From Chitinophagaceae bacterium (GTDB lineage Bacteria > Bacteroidota > Bacteroidia > Chitinophagales > Chitinophagaceae): 64,000 bases of DNA. The translations under genes were made by a program, and so were the position numbers. The stretch covers positions 37,763-101,762 of the forward strand of contig CANFLL010000002.1 in NCBI GenBank assembly GCA_947447825.1. The letters run 5' to 3'. Positions 5,640 through 64,000 of the stretch are shown here, piece by piece. Numbering within the stretch: the first letter of the stretch is position 1; each line of letters opens with the position of its first letter. A model generated the notes under the pieces. That model ran no database searches. It saw only the letters and a program-made list of their open reading frames with translations, and had not been told where the DNA came from.

Positions 5640-5945
5640 AGAGATAGTTGCATTACTATCCTTCTTAGCAGAGAATTTAGCCCAAATAAGTGCTTTACAA
5701 TCCTTACCTGCTAATCAGGACGCTCATACACTCAATTAAGCAACCTTGTTTGCAGAGAAGGTTGTTTAATCACGTGCATGAGCTTCCCTCCTAGCAGCGA
5801 AAGAAGCTCATGCACGTGATTAAGCTTCCTGATTAGCAGCGAAGGAAGCTTAATCACCTGATTTTGTTGCCTTCTTAGCAACGAAGGTTGCTCAAGCACG
5901 CAAATGAGGTAATTCCACAGCAGAGAAGGAGACTAAATCACTTTT
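5640..5945. repeat. Array of ~40-43 bp imperfect hairpin units, copy 1
   Basis: About 6-7 diverged units, e.g. AGCTTCCTGATTAGCAGCGAAGGAAGCTTAATCACCTGATTTT; inverted counterpart at 50211-50511. Confidence 0.85.
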
Positions 5946-6099
5946 TTAGGCTCAATAAATGGCTGCTAGGTTAACAAATACAATAATATTTTATAATTAT
6001 TCTATATGTATAATTTATTTATTTTCAAATAATTATTTATTATTTGGATAAATAGATTATGTGCTGCAATAGAACTAGCTTTACCCAGTTAAAAAGCGA

Positions 6100-8782: not shown

Positions 8783-11700
8783 ATGAATTTGGATGTTTTA
8801 TTGGCGCAATACCAGGAATCCCCCCCTGTTTCTCAACTGGCGGACAGGCTTTTATTTGCCGACCCTCAACAAATATTTCTTAAAAACTTACTGGGTAGTA
8901 GCGTTGAGTTTGTGGTGAGTGGGGTGTTTACGCATCCCAAAACGCAGGGCTTGAACCATTTGCTGGTGTTGAATGATGCCGAGGAAGCTGCCTACTTTCA
9001 TAACACGCTAGAGAACCTGACCAATGCATTGGATTTGTTTTATTTCCCTTCATCCTTCAAAACAAAAAAGAACTTTCGCCTTTTAAATTCTTCGCATGTA
9101 ATGCTTCGTACAGAGGCATTGACCAAGCTGGCTAATGGTGGCAATAAGAAAATAATAGTCACCTATCCAGAAGCATTGTTCGAGAAAGTGGTTCTACCAC
9201 AAACGTTGAGTGGTAATATCATTCTCATCAAATCGAACGATACCATTAACCTCGACGGACTAATGGAATTGTTTGTACTATATGGTTTTGAGCGGACAGA
9301 CTTTGTGTACGAACCCGGTCAGTTTGCACTGCGTGGAGGTATATTGGATATTTATTCTTTCGGGAATGAGAAGCCTTATAGGGTGGAATTGTTTGGTAAT
9401 GAGGTGGACAGCATCCGAATATTTGATCCCGAAACACAGTTGAGCGAACGAAAGGTTTTGCAGGTAAGCATCATCCCCAATGTAGAAACACAGTTTGAAA
9501 CGGGTGATAAGGTTTCCCTTCTAGAATTTTTGCCAGAGAATACCATCGTATGGCTAAAAGATTGGGACGTGATTAAGGGCATCATTGAAGAATCGGAACT
9601 TGATTTGGGTGAATTCCTCGAAAAGTCTCAGTTTGATAAAGAAGCAAAAGCTCTTGCTATACAAAACAGGCATCCCAAGGCAAAAGTGCCGATGGATGAG
9701 GAAGAGGACGATGACACAAAAGTGTTGAAGGATGTAAAGCTGGAAGATTTTACACCCGTAGCGACAACTGAGCGACAACTCCAAAAGCGTCACATAGTAG
9801 AATTTGGTTTTAAACAACTGTTTACCGTCGACCGTTTACCGTTGACCGAGAAGGAGTCAACCGTTAACCGTTTACCGTTTACCGAAGAGCCAGACGTTGT
9901 AAGCAATGAGCGGTTAACGGAATACGGTCAACGGAAAGCGGTTATCGGTAATCGGTTAACCATCAACTTCTCCACTAAAGAACAACCTTCCTTCAATCGA
10001 CAATTTAATATGTTGATTGCGGATTTGACAAAACATGAAGCAAACGGATACAGCCTCTACATCTTCGCCGAACAGGCAAAACAATTGGAAAGACTGCACA
10101 GCATTTTCAAAGACCTTAGTACCGAGATAAGTTTTGTGCCTGTTGCCACTTCCATCCATGAAGGTTTTATTGATGAGGATTTAAAAATTGTTTGCTACAC
10201 GGATCATCAGATATTTCAACGTTATCATAAATACAAGGTCAAGCAGGCTTTTAATAAGAACAAGGCACTCACCATTAAAACCCTCCGTGACTTACAGCCA
10301 GGGGATTTTGTAACGCATATAGATCATGGCGTGGGTACTTACAGTGGTTTGCAAAAACTGGAAGTGAATGGAAGACTGCAAGAAGCTGTGCGTATTATTT
10401 ATAAGGACAGCGATATTCTGTATGTAAATATTAACTCCCTGCACAAGATTTCTAAATACACCGGCAAGGAAGGAACGGTGCCCAAGGTGAATAAACTGGG
10501 TAGCGATGTGTGGAGTAAACTGAAGGAAAAGACCAAGACGAAAGTGAAGGAAATAGCCTTCGACCTGATAAAACTATATGCAGAACGTAAGGCACAAGTA
10601 GGTTTTGCCTACACGCCAGATACGTATATGCAAACGGAACTGGAGGCAAGTTTTATGTATGAAGACACGCCCGACCAAGCAAAAGCCGTTGCCGATGTGA
10701 AGAAGGATATGGAAAGCACAAGCCCAATGGATAGATTGGTTTGTGGCGATGTGGGCTTTGGGAAAACCGAAGTGGCTGTACGTGCTGCTTTTAAAAGTGT
10801 GATTGATGGAAAACAAGCTGCCGTATTGGTGCCTACAACCATTCTTGCCTTTCAACATTACAAGACATTCAAGGAGCGTTTGAAAGATTTTCCTGTGACG
10901 GTGGATTATGTAAACCGCTTTAAATCTGCAAAGGAAAAGAAGGAAACTTTAGAAAGATTGGCTGATGGAAAGATAGACATCATTATTGGCACACACGGAT
11001 TGCTGGGCAAAGAGGTGAAGTTTAAAGACCTAGGCATGATGATTATTGATGAAGAACAAAAGTTTGGCGTGGCACATAAGGAGAAATTGAAGACCCTTAA
11101 AACCAATGTTGATTGCCTTACACTTACTGCAACCCCCATACCTAGAACACTTCACTTTAGTTTGATGGGAGCAAGGGATTTGAGCATTATTAATACGCCA
11201 CCACCTAATAGACAACCGATACAAACCGAGATTCAGGTGTTTAATGAAGATTTCATTCGAGAAGCCATCTATTTTGAAACCAACAGGGGTGGGCAAGTTT
11301 TCTTTATACATAACCGAGTACAAGGACTAGGCGAGATGGCTGCTTTAATACAAGCCCAATGTCCGGATATTAGTATTGGTTTTGCACATGGTCAGTTAGA
11401 AGGGCATGAACTGGAAGAACGTATCATGGATTTTATAGACCGGAAATATGATGTATTGGTTTGTACAAACATTGTAGAAAGCGGGGTAGACATTGCCAAT
11501 GTAAATACCATCATCATTAATAATGCACATCAATTTGGATTGAGCGATTTGCACCAATTGCGTGGTCGAGTAGGCCGTAGTAATAAGAAAGCTTTCTGTT
11601 ATTTACTCGCTCCACCAATGAGTACGTTACCTAGCGACAGTCGCAAACGTCTTCAAACCTTAGAACAGTTTAGCGATTTGGGTAGTGGCTTCCAGATTGC

Positions 11701-19612: not shown

Positions 19613-20596
19613 ATGTATTTTGAACAACTATTCAAAGATTTTGGAAATATTACAGTGGCAGTGATTGGCGATGTAATGTTGGACACCTATTTATTTGGTA
19701 AGGTTGAGCGTATTTCGCCCGAAGCTCCTGTGCCTGTGGTGGCTGTTCAGCACAAAGAACAGCGCATTGGTGGGGCAGGTAATGTTGCCCTAAACACCGT
19801 TTCACTAAATGCAAAAACATTTATTATCTCGGTTATTGGAGCCGATGATGATGGTCAACAATTGACTTCTTTATACAGTAGTCAGAAGATTGATACTACT
19901 TATCTGATTACTTCTCCCCACAGAATTACGACCAATAAAACCCGCATTTTGGGTGGCAATCAACAGATGATGCGTTTGGATTCTGAAACAACCAAGGATA
20001 TTTCAACGGAAGAAGAAGACTTATTACTCAATCAACTTCAAAAGTGTATTGCCCACAATAAACCAAGTGTTGTCATATTTGAAGATTACAACAAAGGCGT
20101 ACTTACCGAAAGAGTGATTGCAGAAGCCATTGCACTTTGCAAACAGCACAATATTATTACCACCGTTGATCCTAAGCACAAAAACTTCTTTGCTTTTAAG
20201 GGGGTAACTATCTTTAAACCTAACCTAAAAGAGGTAAAAGAAGGATTGAACATTGCCATCGATGAAATAAATATTACCACACTAAATGCGGTGCATCTTC
20301 AACTTCAGGAGCAGTTGCAGCATAGCATTTCCCTCATTACTTTATCGGAGAAGGGCGTGTTTTTTCAATCGGAAGATGAGTCAGCAATTATTCCTACCCA
20401 CATCCGTTCTATTGCCGATGTTAGTGGTGCGGGTGATACTGTTATTGCAGTAGCCTCGTTGGCGTATGCTACAACAAGGGATATGAAACTGGCAGCAGAT
20501 ATGGCCAACATTGCTGGCGGATTGGTGTGCGAGGAAGTAGGAACGGTAGCCATCAACAATCCTAAGCTGTTGAAAGAGTGCGATTATTTATTGTAA
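19613..20596 (+). CDS. D-glycero-beta-D-manno-heptose-7-phosphate kinase (HldE kinase domain/RfaE1-like)
   Basis: PfkB family: VAVIGDVMLDTYLFGKVERISPEAPVPVV and DVSGAGDTVIAV; internal ATG at 19613 preferred. Confidence 0.88.
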   Translation: MYFEQLFKDFGNITVAVIGDVMLDTYLFGKVERISPEAPVPVVAVQHKEQRIGGAGNVALNTVSLNAKTFIISVIGADDDGQQLTSLYSSQKIDTTYLITSPHRITTNKTRILGGNQQMMRLDSETTKDISTEEEDLLLNQLQKCIAHNKPSVVIFEDYNKGVLTERVIAEAIALCKQHNIITTVDPKHKNFFAFKGVTIFKPNLKEVKEGLNIAIDEINITTLNAVHLQLQEQLQHSISLITLSEKGVFFQSEDESAIIPTHIRSIADVSGAGDTVIAVASLAYATTRDMKLAADMANIAGGLVCEEVGTVAINNPKLLKECDYLL

Positions 20597-20618
20597 ATAA
20601 AAAGTTTTCAGGCAAAAT

Positions 20619-20798
20619 GTAAGCCTTCACGGAAGTCTGGTAAGCCCTTACGGAGTTTCCGTACAACTGAACGGGAACTCAGTAAAGGCTTACGAAAAAT
20701 TTGTTCAATTGAACGAACTTTCCGTAAGGTCATACGGAAGTTCCGTAAAGTCTTACGGAAAGTTCGTAAGCCCTTACCGGCCTTCCGTTCAATTGAAT
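20619..20798. repeat. 21-bp phased tandem array of diverged palindromic units
   Basis: Eight consecutive 21-bp units plus a partial ninth, no indels: GTAAGCCTTCACGGAAGTCTG | GTAAGCCCTTACGGAGTTTCC | GTACAACTGAACGGGAACTCA | GTAAAGGCTTACGAAAAATTT | GTTCAATTGAACGAACTTTCC | GTAAGGTCATACGGAAGTTCC | GTAAAGTCTTACGGAAAGTTC | GTAAGCCCTTACCGGCCTTCC | GTTCAATTGAAT. Confidence 0.95.
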
Positions 20799-20837
20799 AT
20801 TTCTTTTAAAACGCTTGATAATACAGTAAGTTGATTG

Positions 20838-21400
20838 CTATTTACTGTTTTTATTTTTTTTATTTCTATCTTTTAAAACAGCACTACTTACTATAATCAC
20901 ATCACCAATATTCATTTTGGCTTCCTTTAGCTTGATGTTTAATTCTGACAAATGCTTCTTGATAATACAAATTTCTTGTTTATCATATCCAAGCGAAAAG
21001 ACTTCTAAAGTAAAAGAAGTGGGAAATTTGTCTGTATGTAGCGAGAATTTACCATTTCTATCAGTTGCTGTGCCTACCTTAAAGCCTTTTACTTTTATTG
21101 AAGCACCCTCTACAGGTATCTTTCCAGTGGTGTCCGTTACTACTCCCTCAAGTAATCTATCACTAATTACCCTGCCTTTTGTTGTTGGATATTTTAGTGT
21201 ATCCTCTCTTGCTTTCTCAGTATTACTTTGTTGGAAAGTGCTATGTTGGGTAGTTTGTGCTGAAGATTTATTGCCCAATAAAACAAGGCAGAAACCGATG
21301 CCAGCCAATACTTCCAGTTTTTGCGTGGCTGCAATTGTGTTTCTATCAGAGGGCGTTGCAATTGGTCAATATCAAATCTGCCACATACATTCCCTCTTTA
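20838..21400 (-). pseudogene. Carboxypeptidase-regulatory-like domain protein, apparently frameshifted and 5' truncated
   Basis: ORF 20838-21308 encodes LLEGVVTDTTGKIPVEGASIKVKGFKVGTATDRNGKFSLHT; another frame just upstream encodes RGNVCGRFDIDQLQRPLIETQLQPRKNWKYWLA, preceded by a stop. Confidence 0.6.
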
Positions 21401-23672: not shown

Positions 23673-24443
23673 ATGAGCGTATTATCAACATTTGAATTAA
23701 AAGGAAAAACCGCCTTAGTTACAGGATGTAGCAGTGGTATTGGTTTGGCGATGGCAGTTGCATTGGCAGAAGCTGGTGCTAACATTATTGGTGTTGCAGT
23801 TGATATGCTACTAGAAGGTAGTGAAGTTGGTAAACAAGTAGAAGCTGCTGGCCGTACATACAAACCTTATGTATGCGACATGACCGACAGAACTGAATTG
23901 TATGCCTTCATTAATAAAGTAAAAACAGAAAATCCTCCAGTTGATATTTTGATTAATAACGCAGGTATGATTTTAAGAAAACCAGCGGCAGAACATCCAG
24001 ATGAATATTGGGATAAATTACTTTCTCTAAACCTTGATGCTCAATTTATTTTGGCTCGTGAGTTTGGTAAAGACATGATTGCTCGTAAGGATGGTAAAAT
24101 TGTATTTACTTGTTCTTTGCTTTCTTTCCAAGGTGGCATCAACGTTCCTGGCTATACGGCTAGTAAAGCTGCAGTGGCAGGTTTGGTAAAAGCATTTGCT
24201 AACGAATGGGCTAGCAGCGGTGTAAACGTAAATGGTATTGCTCCGGGCTATATTGCTACTGCAAACACAACGGCTTTGAGAGAAGATGCTGACAGAAGTG
24301 CTGCAATATTGGGTAGAATTCCTGCAGGACGTTGGGGTCAACCAGAAGATTTTCAAGGGCCTGTTGTATTCTTATGTTCTCAAGCAGCAGCTTACGTAAA
24401 TGGTCACATTTTAGTAGTTGATGGCGGCTGGATGGCAAGATAA
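23673..24443 (+). CDS. kduD: 2-deoxy-D-gluconate 3-dehydrogenase / 2-dehydro-3-deoxy-D-gluconate 5-dehydrogenase (SDR)
   Basis: GKTALVTGCSSGIGLAMA, NNAGMI, YTASKAAVAGLVKAFANEWA; adjacent to kduI. Confidence 0.92.
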   Translation: MSVLSTFELKGKTALVTGCSSGIGLAMAVALAEAGANIIGVAVDMLLEGSEVGKQVEAAGRTYKPYVCDMTDRTELYAFINKVKTENPPVDILINNAGMILRKPAAEHPDEYWDKLLSLNLDAQFILAREFGKDMIARKDGKIVFTCSLLSFQGGINVPGYTASKAAVAGLVKAFANEWASSGVNVNGIAPGYIATANTTALREDADRSAAILGRIPAGRWGQPEDFQGPVVFLCSQAAAYVNGHILVVDGGWMAR

Positions 24444-24480
24444 TTCAGAATTTATAATTCATAATTTATAATTAATTAAA

Positions 24481-25420: not shown

Positions 25421-26446
25421 ATGAGCAAGACAGTAGTAACATTGGGTGAAATCATGATGAGATTATCAACCCCAGGTTTCCAACGCTTCGAGCAAGCGAA
25501 CAATTTTGATGTAACTTATGGTGGTGGTGAAGCTAACGTAGCAGCTGCTATTTGTAATTATGGTTTGCAAGGAAGATTTGTAAGTAAAGTTCCTAAAGAT
25601 TCTTTGGGTCAAGCTGCAATTAATCATTTGCGTAGATATGGTGTTGATACACAATTCGTAGCTAGAGGTGGAGACCGTATTGGTATCTATTTCTTAGAAA
25701 CTGGTGCTTCTATGCGTGCTAGTAAAGTAATTTACGATCGTGCTGGTGCTGCTATTGCAGATGTTGATGCTTCTGAATTTGATTGGGATGCAATTTTCGA
25801 AGGTGCTTCTTGGTTTCACACTACAGGTATTACCCCTGCATTGAGCGATAAAGCTGCTGCACTTACTTTGGCTGCTTTAAAAGCTGCTAAAGCAAAAGGC
25901 ATTACTACAAGTATTGACTTAAACTATCGTAAGAAATTATGGAGTAAAGAAAAAGCAAGAGAAGTAATGACTCAGCTTTGTCAATACGTTGATGTTTGTA
26001 TAGGTAATGAAGAAGATGCTGATACTTCATTAGGTTTTAAATCTGAAGGTACTGATGTAACAAAGGGTGAATTGAATTTGGATGGATACAAGAGTGTATT
26101 CCAACAAATGAAAGCTAAATTTGGTTTCAAATACATCGCTTCTACATTGCGTGAAAGCCATAGTGCTTCTGATAATGGATGGAGTGCATTGGTTTATGAT
26201 GGAACAGAATTTTATCATACCAAAGAATATGAAGTACGTATTGTAGATAGAGTAGGTAGTGGAGATAGCTTTGCTTCTGGTTTTATTTATGGTTTAGTAA
26301 GTGGTAAATCTATGGGTGATGCTGCTGAATTTGGTGTAGCTGCTTCTGCTTTGAAACATACTATTCATGGTGACTTGAACCAAGTTACTGTTGAAGAAGT
26401 AATGGGCATTGTGAAAGGTGATGGTAGCGGACGTGTTCAGCGCTAA
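25421..26446 (+). CDS. kdgK: 2-dehydro-3-deoxygluconokinase (PfkB family)
   Basis: VVTLGEIMMRLSTPGFQRFEQA...YGGGEANVAAAICNYG; DRVGSGDSFASGFIYG. Confidence 0.92.
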   Translation: MSKTVVTLGEIMMRLSTPGFQRFEQANNFDVTYGGGEANVAAAICNYGLQGRFVSKVPKDSLGQAAINHLRRYGVDTQFVARGGDRIGIYFLETGASMRASKVIYDRAGAAIADVDASEFDWDAIFEGASWFHTTGITPALSDKAAALTLAALKAAKAKGITTSIDLNYRKKLWSKEKAREVMTQLCQYVDVCIGNEEDADTSLGFKSEGTDVTKGELNLDGYKSVFQQMKAKFGFKYIASTLRESHSASDNGWSALVYDGTEFYHTKEYEVRIVDRVGSGDSFASGFIYGLVSGKSMGDAAEFGVAASALKHTIHGDLNQVTVEEVMGIVKGDGSGRVQR

Positions 26447-26536
26447 ATGAGTTATATGTTTTACGTTGTAAGTAATACGTAATTTATGGATAACGTTAAA
26501 CGTAATACTTACAACGTACAACTCAAAATTTAAAAC

Positions 26537-26989
26537 ATGATAATAGATACTATACAAAATGCACATAAATATGCTAGCGTGCACCCTTTGTTTGCAAAAG
26601 CTTTCGAATACATTAAAAGTACTGATTTGGCTAATGCTGAAGTAGGTAAATCTGATATAGCCGAAGGTTTAAAAGCAATCATTTCTAACAAAAAAGGAAT
26701 GACAGCTGCTGAATCAATCGCTAAATTCGAATGTCATAACAACAACATTGATATTCAACTTTGCGTAAAAGGAGAAGAAACAATAGCATGGAAGCCTCGC
26801 GAAAAATGTGTGTCTCAAAAAGGAGAATACAATCCTGAAAAAGATGTACTTTTTTATGATGATGCACCCGATATGTATTTTCAATTGACTGATGGTCAAT
26901 TTGCCATTTTCTTTCCAGAAGATGTTCATGCGCCAATGATTGGCGGTGATGCTGAAATAAAGAAGTTGGTTATTAAAGTAAAAATATAA
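26537..26989 (+). CDS. YhcH/YjgK/YiaL-family protein
   Basis: Cupin-like TDGQFAIFFPEDVHAPMIGG...IKKLVIKVKI typical of this family. Confidence 0.9.
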   Translation: MIIDTIQNAHKYASVHPLFAKAFEYIKSTDLANAEVGKSDIAEGLKAIISNKKGMTAAESIAKFECHNNNIDIQLCVKGEETIAWKPREKCVSQKGEYNPEKDVLFYDDAPDMYFQLTDGQFAIFFPEDVHAPMIGGDAEIKKLVIKVKI

Positions 26990-34274: not shown

Positions 34275-34327
34275 AATGCCTGTAATGTTTAACACATTTC
34301 ATTACCCTCATCTTTGCATCCACTTTA

Positions 34328-34597
34328 GAGTACTAATCTTGTCCGGTTTTACTAAAAGTGTGCTGTGTTTGCTCGAAACTGGTCCAGCCGAGTACTAAAC
34401 TTGTCCGGTTTTACTAAAAGTGTGCTGTATTTGTTCAAAACTGGTCCAGCCGAGTACTAAACTTGTCCGGTTTTACTAAAAGTGTGCTGTGTTTGTTCAA
34501 AACTGGTCCAGCCAAGTACTAATCTTGTCCGGTTTTACTAAAAGAGTGCTGTGTTTTCTCGAAACTGGTCCAGCCGAGTACTAAACTTGTCCGGTTT
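34328..34597. repeat. 62-bp tandem array, about 4.4 units
   Basis: Unit GAGTACTAAACTTGTCCGGTTTTACTAAAAGTGTGCTGTGTTTGTTCAAAACTGGTCCAGCC, near-identical copies. Confidence 0.95.
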
Positions 34598-34764
34598 GTA
34601 ACTATTCAGGGGATATTTAACCACAAAGGGCACTAGGGTTTTCACCAGGAACACAAGGATTGTGTTGTATTATTTCTTCAGGACTACCATTGAGGAACTC
34701 TAAACCTTAGTGTACTTTGTTTTTTCCTTGTTTGCTTAGTGGTAAATAACCCCTGAAGAGTTAC
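34598..34764. repeat. MITE-like inverted-repeat element (copy B)
   Basis: GTAACTATTCAGGGGATATTTAACCACAAAG ... CTTAGTGGTAAATAACCCCTGAAGAGTTAC, ~30-bp imperfect TIRs. Confidence 0.88.
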
Positions 34765-49937: not shown

Positions 49938-50210
49938 TGTTTGTTTAACCACAAGGGAGATAAAGGAAGGAAACACTAGGAATACAGGGATTAGTTAAGA
50001 AGATTTTTATTTTTATCTAAAGTATATACTATTCCTTTAAACAACTTTTCTATCTTATTTACATCATCGGCAAGCGGATTATTTCCTCTTGCCGATTTTG
50101 TTTTTTGTGTAGTTCCTATACAATATAAATTGCAAACAAGCATCCATCATACCCCAACAAATTGCCCTACAATCACGACTGTTGCTGCACCACATTTACC
50201 TGAAAAAAGT

Positions 50211-50511
50211 GTTTTACCTGCCTTCTCTGCTCCGGAATTACCTCGTTTGCGTGCATGAGCTTCCTTCTTAGCAAAGAAGGCAACTAAACGGAGTGATTGA
50301 ACAACCTTCGCCGCTAAGAAGGAAGCTCACACACGTGAATGAACAACCTGATTAGCAGCGAAGGAAGCTTAACCGAGTGAATGAACAACCTTCCTAGCAG
50401 AACAGGAAGGCAAATTGAGTGAATGAGCTTCCTTCTTAGCAGGTAAGGATTGTCAAGCACTTATTTGACCTAAATTCTCTGCTAAGAAGGATAGTAATGC
50501 AACTATTTTTA
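50211..50511. repeat. Array of ~40-43 bp imperfect hairpin units, copy 2 (inverted relative to copy 1)
   Basis: Reverse complement begins ATAGTTGCATTACTATCCTTCTTAGCAGAGAATTTAG, as in copy 1 at 5644; ends GAGGTAATTCCGGAGCAGAGAAGG vs GAGGTAATTCCACAGCAGAGAAGG. Confidence 0.9.
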
Positions 50512-50855
50512 GACGCTATATCTTAACCACATTGCCCTAATTGACTCATAGAAAAAGAGAATTTGAAAAAGAAAACTTTCGTTTCAAGGTAATATTGCAT
50601 GAAGCATACTAGACATAAACTGCTTTATTTTCTTTTCAAATCCTAACTAAAATAAAACACTATGTGCCTTCTGTGTCTATGTTATAAATGTTTTATTTAA
50701 ACTAAAAATTCACCGTATCATCCCTATTATCTACTGCTTTTCTTATCCATTATCACCCTTAAAAAAGTAATACATCACAGCATCATTAAACCCTTATCAT
50801 TTTTCATCGTTTCAATTAAGTTCAATAAATGTAGTACTGACATATATTTGCTATT

Positions 50856-63509: not shown

Positions 63510-63858
63510 TGTCTAAAGGTTTAATGTCTCGTACGTTGCGAAATTAGTTGTGTTTCAAACATTGCCACCAACGAACGGGTATTGAGAATGTGGCAGGTCA
63601 CGAATATTCCTTCCGTCCACCACAAATGCTTAATTCCTATTCTAAAAGCCGAATATAAGAACTGAAGTTCAATAGCATTACGTCTGCTGAAACAAAAGTC
63701 AAATGAAATCACAAATGCTGAATTTATTCCGTCTGCCTGCCATATTTGCAATACTGATGTTATGGGGCTGACAAACTACGCTTCAATACGTCCGCATAGC
63801 TTAATCAAGGAACTAAAGACTGAATTATGATCCAATGTTCCAAGATGTTCAGTCCGCC

Positions 63859-64000
63859 TTTTACTCAAACAGAACAGTCCCTCACTTGAACGGAAGCATC
63901 GTTCACCTGAACGGCTCTTCCGTACAATTGAACCCAAAGTCCGTAAGCCTTCACGCAACTTCCGTACACTTAAACGGAAGAGTCGTACAAGTGAACCCAA
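63859..64000. repeat. 21-bp phased palindromic array, second locus (runs off the window end)
   Basis: CCTCACTTGAACGGAAGCATC | GTTCACCTGAACGGCTCTTCC | GTACAATTGAACCCAAAGTCC | GTAAGCCTTCACGCAACTTCC | GTACACTTAAACGGAAGAGTC | GTACAAGTGAACCCAA. Confidence 0.92.

Follow-up and report, generated by a model that had tools for sequence, protein, structure and literature searches.

The stretch of DNA analysed here, which we call the window, covers 64,000 nucleotides of a contig from a Chitinophagaceae bacterium and contains, between two protein-coding genes, an array of nine tandem units of exactly 21 bp that are joined without any indel. In agreement with the first-pass annotation, which had already described a constant unit length and the same flanks, the gene on the left encodes a PfkB/HldE-like carbohydrate kinase, and the disrupted gene on the right is a minus-strand CarboxypepD_reg-like gene with its start broken across two frames. 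Judged by gene content, the array is placed between convergent genes; an automated tabulation, misled by a spurious small ORF, scored its context as tandem. The features of the window are collected in Table 1.

Table 1. Genes, dyads and repeat arrays of the window (positions refer to the whole 64,000-nucleotide stretch).
Feature	Position	Strand	Remarks
PfkB/HldE-like carbohydrate kinase gene	19613..20596	+	array neighbour; ends 21 bp before the array
F1 array	20618..20806	.	nine 21-bp units, dyads of two types
Dyad 1 GTAAGCCTTCAC	20619..20630	.	type A, imperfect
Dyad 2 GTAAGCCCTTAC	20640..20651	.	type A
Dyad 3 GTACAACTGAAC	20661..20672	.	type B
Dyad 4 GTAAAGGCTTAC	20682..20693	.	type A
Dyad 5 GTTCAATTGAAC	20703..20714	.	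type B, perfect
Dyad 6 GTAAGGTCATAC	20724..20735	.	type A
Dyad 7 GTAAAGTCTTAC	20745..20756	.	type A
Dyad 8 GTAAGCCCTTAC	20766..20777	.	type A
Dyad 9 GTTCAATTGAAT	20787..20798	.	type B, one edge lost
CarboxypepD_reg-like gene	20838..21361	-	array neighbour; split between two frames
Second F1 array	63853..64000	.	cut by contig end
F2 array, family unrelated to F1	5694..5959	.	dyads around CTTCCTT..AAGGAAG and CACGTG, 42-bp alternation
Second F2 array	50209..50517	.	473-bp inverted block in common with the 5.7-kb array
62-bp-period array	34275..34652	.	about six helix turns; no clear dyad; doubtful class member

Within the 12-bp dyads, 40 of 54 pairs are complementary, compared with 15.1 ± 3.3 expected from shuffling within each 12-mer, and none of 20,000 such shuffles attains 40; column permutation gives p = 0.00015. 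The symmetry is therefore far better than that of shuffled units, and both dyad types named previously, GTAAG..CTTAC and GTTCA/GTACA..TGAAC, were found. The linker, which had been called near-palindromic, does show symmetry above chance (p = 0.004), but it is weak, with 16 of 32 pairs against 8.8 expected. The further claim that changes in one half of a dyad are matched in the other was not borne out: permuting the right halves among the units still leaves 33.4 ± 4.0 pairs (p = 0.066), and no compensatory covariation within a dyad type was detected across 131 related F1 units. The coupling of the halves is mostly a difference between the two dyad types. A pooled covariation test over arrays returned z of about 3 and is not relied on, because it included flank rows, which inflate the result.

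A sequence-agnostic scan of the window for periods of 10–63 bp ranked 21 bp first, with a score of 33 compared with 25–28 in shuffles, and its highest-scoring locus was the nine-unit array. Four loci with this period were returned (5752–5857, 20624–20729, 50250–50271 and 63885). The two F2 arrays, at 5.7 and 50 kb, are unlike F1 in sequence, yet they also carry two dyads alternating at 21 bp. Because the contig ends inside the second F1 array, such arrays probably break assemblies and are undercounted. The 62-bp array consists of direct repeat units that are 93–97% identical. Separate arrays with a 7-bp period occur at 9820–9960, 26441–26567 and 24440–24473; some 7-bp arrays run into their own reverse complement, giving a large hairpin (GTTTACC repeats followed by GGTTAACGG repeats), and 7/14-bp arrays resembling those of the window also occur elsewhere in the genome and in some other Chitinophagaceae genera.

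The genome to which the window belongs was examined as sampled stretches amounting to about 10% of 4.65 Mb (464–494 kb). In a dyad-phase scan of 464 kb, 21 loci had a period of 21 bp, about 0.2 being expected in shuffles; the harmonics of 42 and 63 bp accounted for 15 and 4 loci, periods of 31 and 41 bp for 4 each, and every other period for 0–2. A tandem-repeat scan independent of dyads was likewise dominated by periods of 21, 42, 63 and 84 bp, with few arrays at 41, 62, 65 and 7/14 bp and none at odd numbers of helix turns (31–32 or 52–53 bp). When the lag spectrum was pooled over arrays, the excess of matches reached 0.219 at lag 21, 0.264 at lag 42 and 0.196 at lag 63, with 0.057 at lag 41 and a weak 0.019 at lag 62; at the remaining lags it was near zero or negative, except for 0.025 at lag 1. 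Array spacing is thus quantised to even helical turns (21, 41/42 and 62/63 bp) across dozens of unrelated families.

About 41 arrays were counted per 494 kb, which extrapolates to approximately 350–400 per 4.65 Mb, so that the array first treated as a single locus is one of hundreds. Comparison of 41 arrays from this genome yielded 26 sequence families. The arrays are nearly all intergenic, only 2 of the 38 tabulated arrays overlapping even a short frame of about 100 codons, and the genes around these 38 are in tandem in 22 cases, divergent in 9, convergent in 6 and undetermined in 1, which matches the background of other intergenic regions (69 tandem, 33 divergent and 15 convergent). Dyads are not universal: about one third of the arrays picked by repetition alone show little or no symmetry. 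The 10.5-bp AA/TT signal expected of A-tract bending is weak in the arrays (z of 0.30 ± 0.13), and curvature was rejected as a reading on this ground.

Of 13 genomes sampled within one Chitinophagaceae genus, 11 contain arrays of the class. The two others, G005 and G008, showed none in about 90 and 57 kb, respectively. Outside the genus, about 640 kb drawn from 11 further genera of the family contained none that could be seen, and the only matches in about 267 kb of sequence from other families of the order had periods of 42/84 bp and were read as coding repeats. The F1 family occupies four loci in the sampled part of its own genome and is also present in four further species of the genus. A search of a public genome collection with the F1 pattern turned up Chitinophagaceae metagenome-assembled genomes only, apart from one match in Ruminococcus (L046), which was set aside as chance-like, with no array there. 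The pattern was absent from IMG/VR, on which ground a phage origin of the arrays was rejected. At the hldE site of three relatives (G004, G003 and G002) the window array is missing; the locus is empty, and its flanks are too diverged for the junction to be placed in a check for target-site duplication. Since this array is missing in three relatives and two species seem to be array-free, the arrays are not essential. A literature search for arrays of this kind found no description.

In approximately 14 F1 arrays, successive units follow at 21 bp throughout, with the sole exception of one 22-bp step in L018. Orthologous arrays with common flanks were compared at seven loci, and the phase was kept at all of them, length changing solely by 21, 42 or 63 bp. 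The array at the C4 locus kept its phase in G000, G003 and G004; the one at the C14 locus, found in four species, is longer by exactly 42 bp in one of them; a TATAC array has an unchanged length and a rewritten middle; an array with a 63-bp period differs by 63 and 21 bp; and three further arrays differ by 42, 0 and 0 bp. A freely varying unit length in relatives was therefore not found. In the L063 array, all units have changed together between sister species, which is concerted evolution. Small indels are present in the flanks of the compared arrays and were not seen inside them, although the numbers are small; only this lack of small indels speaks for selection, because steps of 21 bp would equally be expected from slippage of whole units by itself.

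In 55 arrays, conservation among units is higher in the columns that form the consensus dyad than in the remaining ones (difference 0.099, null 0.021, z = 6.9), and in the 24 arrays with strong dyads the difference rises to 0.150 against a null of 0.021. The type-A units of F1 have GT...AC edges that are 94–100% conserved, compared with 63–84% at the first five linker positions, a pattern closer to symmetric operator sites than to a helix kept for pairing. The proposal that symmetry rather than sequence is constrained holds between families and fails within a family, in which conservation extends to the sequences of the arms. The central dinucleotide of F1 dyads is mostly non-self-complementary, GG/CC in type A and AC/GT in type B, and a self-complementary centre occurs in 4 of 61 type-A units, compared with 12 expected. 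The usual, non-self-complementary centre lends a direction to each otherwise symmetric unit, much as in the crossover sites of recombinases.

Arrays also move as blocks. L057 and L067 have 217 bp in common, inverted and at 86% identity, with the homology starting about 15–18 bp outside the array; outside a few segmental duplications, homology between family members mostly ends at or near the array edge. The GACTCAGGTGAGTC arrays at L061 16188, L065 12014 and L070 4693 (G000:C1 and C14) are such segmental duplications carrying an array, with more than 700 bp in common including flanks, at 78–87% identity. When G000:C4 is compared with G004:C3, several arrays lie near the ends of syntenic blocks, as if they were recombination points.

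Several known repeat systems are similar to these arrays in part. In plasmid iterons, direct repeats follow one another at about two helix turns, and an initiator protein binds them on one face of the DNA. The arrays share this spacing, but they form hundreds of dispersed intergenic loci with many sequences, and the genes examined beside arrays are not replication genes; no replication initiator gene lies beside the window array, whose neighbours are the kinase and CarboxypepD_reg genes. The STRR sequences of cyanobacteria are abundant intergenic heptamer tandem repeats. Abundant intergenic short tandem heptamers, with the sequence TAACTGA, are also known from Beggiatoaceae (PMC4679880). Although 21 equals 3 × 7 and the arrays give a 7-bp composition signal in Fourier terms, they have no identity at lag 7 (-0.026) and true heptamer arrays are separate in the genome, so a heptamer origin was rejected. 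The repeat structure also differs from that of a CRISPR array, in which identical repeats alternate with unique spacers: here the whole 21-bp unit repeats and diverges, and there are no unique spacers.

The closest likeness in behaviour is to REP/BIME elements, intergenic imperfect palindromes that occur in more than 100 copies per genome, with regular spacing, alternating types or orientations, restriction to lineages and variable copy number, and that, as BIMEs, bind the architectural proteins IHF and gyrase (PMC2817692). The arrays described here are also abundant, extragenic, imperfectly palindromic, regularly spaced and alternating. Their differences are a unit of 21 bp with a spacer of no more than a few bases, a length that is tied to even helix turns, the large number of unrelated families (26 or more in about 10% of the genome, where REP/BIME elements have a few), and the absence of a GTAG/GTGG-type head at the foot of the palindrome or, on inspection, of any head common to the listed family units. 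REP/BIME elements also have a cognate RAYT gene, which correlates with the repeats in its presence and often has them on its flanks; no such link to RAYT genes was seen for the arrays. Classical REP-like repeats, distinct from the 21-bp arrays, were seen in G012 (L233 5085–6010), where 48-bp repeats containing a CCCTTCGGGA hairpin stand directly after a Y1/RAYT-like gene. BrickBuilt, a minisatellite-MITE of Porphyromonas gingivalis, has a 23-nt tandem unit, is exclusively intergenic, is predicted to form stem-loops, and consists of one sequence family of 19 copies with a leader, a tail and IS5-like terminal repeats (PMC4596501). Its occurrence in Bacteroidota, intergenic location, unit near two helix turns, predicted stem-loops and presence or absence between strains are shared with our arrays, which differ in having many families, no leader or tail that could be seen, and a unit of 21 bp (or 41/62). 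Of the kinds described so far, REP/BIME and BrickBuilt are the nearest. Because the arrays depart from both in defining features that were tested (the RAYT link and the head of REP elements; the leader and tail with terminal repeats of BrickBuilt), we call them BIME-like in behaviour and regard them as variant intergenic palindromic repeats.

The interpretation that we tentatively favour, with slightly less than even confidence, is that the arrays are two-turn-phased scaffolds of symmetric sites for one or more cooperative architectural DNA-binding proteins, spreading by whole units and blocks. What was observed is the architecture, the quantisation of the spacing, the conserved dyad columns, the placement between genes, the restriction to a genus, the unit-wise change in length and the dispersal of blocks. 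Each 21-bp unit would be a putative symmetric site of the dimer-binding type and, because the sites are spaced two helical turns apart, all of them would lie on one face of B-DNA. One or several DNA-binding proteins, either sequence-permissive or diversified, may attach cooperatively to the successive dyads of an array, bridging or coating the intergenic DNA, in a role that would concern chromosome architecture or insulation rather than the control of a single gene. Arrays would lengthen and shorten by whole 21-bp units, be homogenised within a locus and now and then spread to new loci as blocks. The first-pass annotation had suggested phased symmetric sites on one helix face, and this DNA-level reading gains from the quantised spacing, the conserved dyad columns and the retention of 21 bp in relatives. 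Several points weigh against a scaffold: with 26 or more sequence families, either one structure-reading protein or many specificities would be required, about a third of the arrays picked by repetition have little dyad symmetry, the arrays are not essential, and their gene context gives no functional hint; the conservation of dyad columns could also be explained in part by homogenisation inside arrays.

In a serious rival explanation, an enzyme that has its own two-turn ruler, such as a transposase, an integrase or an HUH-like nuclease, would have produced the arrays as selfish or mobile BIME-like repeats, possibly with rolling-circle amplification; the 21-bp unit would then reflect the enzyme and not a cell function. 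We regard this as possible, though rather unlikely. It fits the many families with several loci each, the en-bloc copies at unrelated sites, the presence or absence between sister species, the unbiased intergenic placement and the confinement to one genus, but alone it leaves the conservation of dyad columns unexplained, and there are no common leaders, tails or terminal repeats. No transposase signal for the arrays was found, and mobilisation by RAYT was rejected, since PF01797 genes occur in species with and without arrays and about 10 arrays of the class in 155 kb around Y1 genes are no more than elsewhere. Neutral minisatellites formed by replication slippage, perhaps through hairpins of palindromic units on single-stranded DNA, would keep their phase only because length changes come in whole units. 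Such changes are indeed what is seen, as are concerted unit change within a locus and ready folding of the units as single strands; however, slippage would not pick one unit length for dozens of unrelated sequences, and the missing spread of periods, the lack of the class in other genera of the family and the selective conservation of dyad columns make this explanation improbable.

The first-pass annotation had also raised an RNA element as an alternative; an activity as RNA, in the form of tandem hairpins in untranslated regions or of a small RNA, appears very improbable. The window array does fold far better than shuffles on both strands (z of -9.3 and -8.6), but strong folding is to be expected of palindromic units, and the sense strand is not favoured in tandem contexts (15 vs 23), mismatches show no G-T preference (387 G-T vs 422 A-C), compensatory changes within dyad types are lacking, the window has no gathering-level Rfam match and some arrays lie between divergent genes. 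The symmetry at the DNA level, the indifference to strand and the near equality of the two mismatch classes support the scaffold instead. Fold-back between mirrored units was examined as well and rejected, as shuffling the unit order leaves the energy of the window array unchanged (z = 0.0). That the arrays encode heptad-repeat peptides, 21 bp being seven codons, is scarcely credible: the window array is open in three of six frames, but stops interrupt all six in 53 of 75 arrays, arrays of 41, 62 and 65 bp break any frame, and overlap with even short frames is, as noted above, rare.

Beyond the scaffold itself, a more speculative and rather doubtful proposal is that of a genus-wide two-turn ruler, in which an enzyme or a polymerising DNA-binding protein would build or maintain palindromic arrays of any sequence at even helix turns, placing hundreds of them intergenically as chromosome scaffolds. 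If true, it would be a bacterial satellite-DNA or architectural system without a described counterpart. Intergenic repeats of bacteria usually fall into one sequence family or a small number of them. What is conserved in these arrays is a physical length of two helix turns, which dozens of unrelated sequences share within one genus and which the sampled sister genera lack. The arrays may help to fragment the assemblies of these environmental genomes. They point to either an architectural protein or a mechanism of amplification that has not been described before, and they raise the testable question of what reads the 21-bp ruler.
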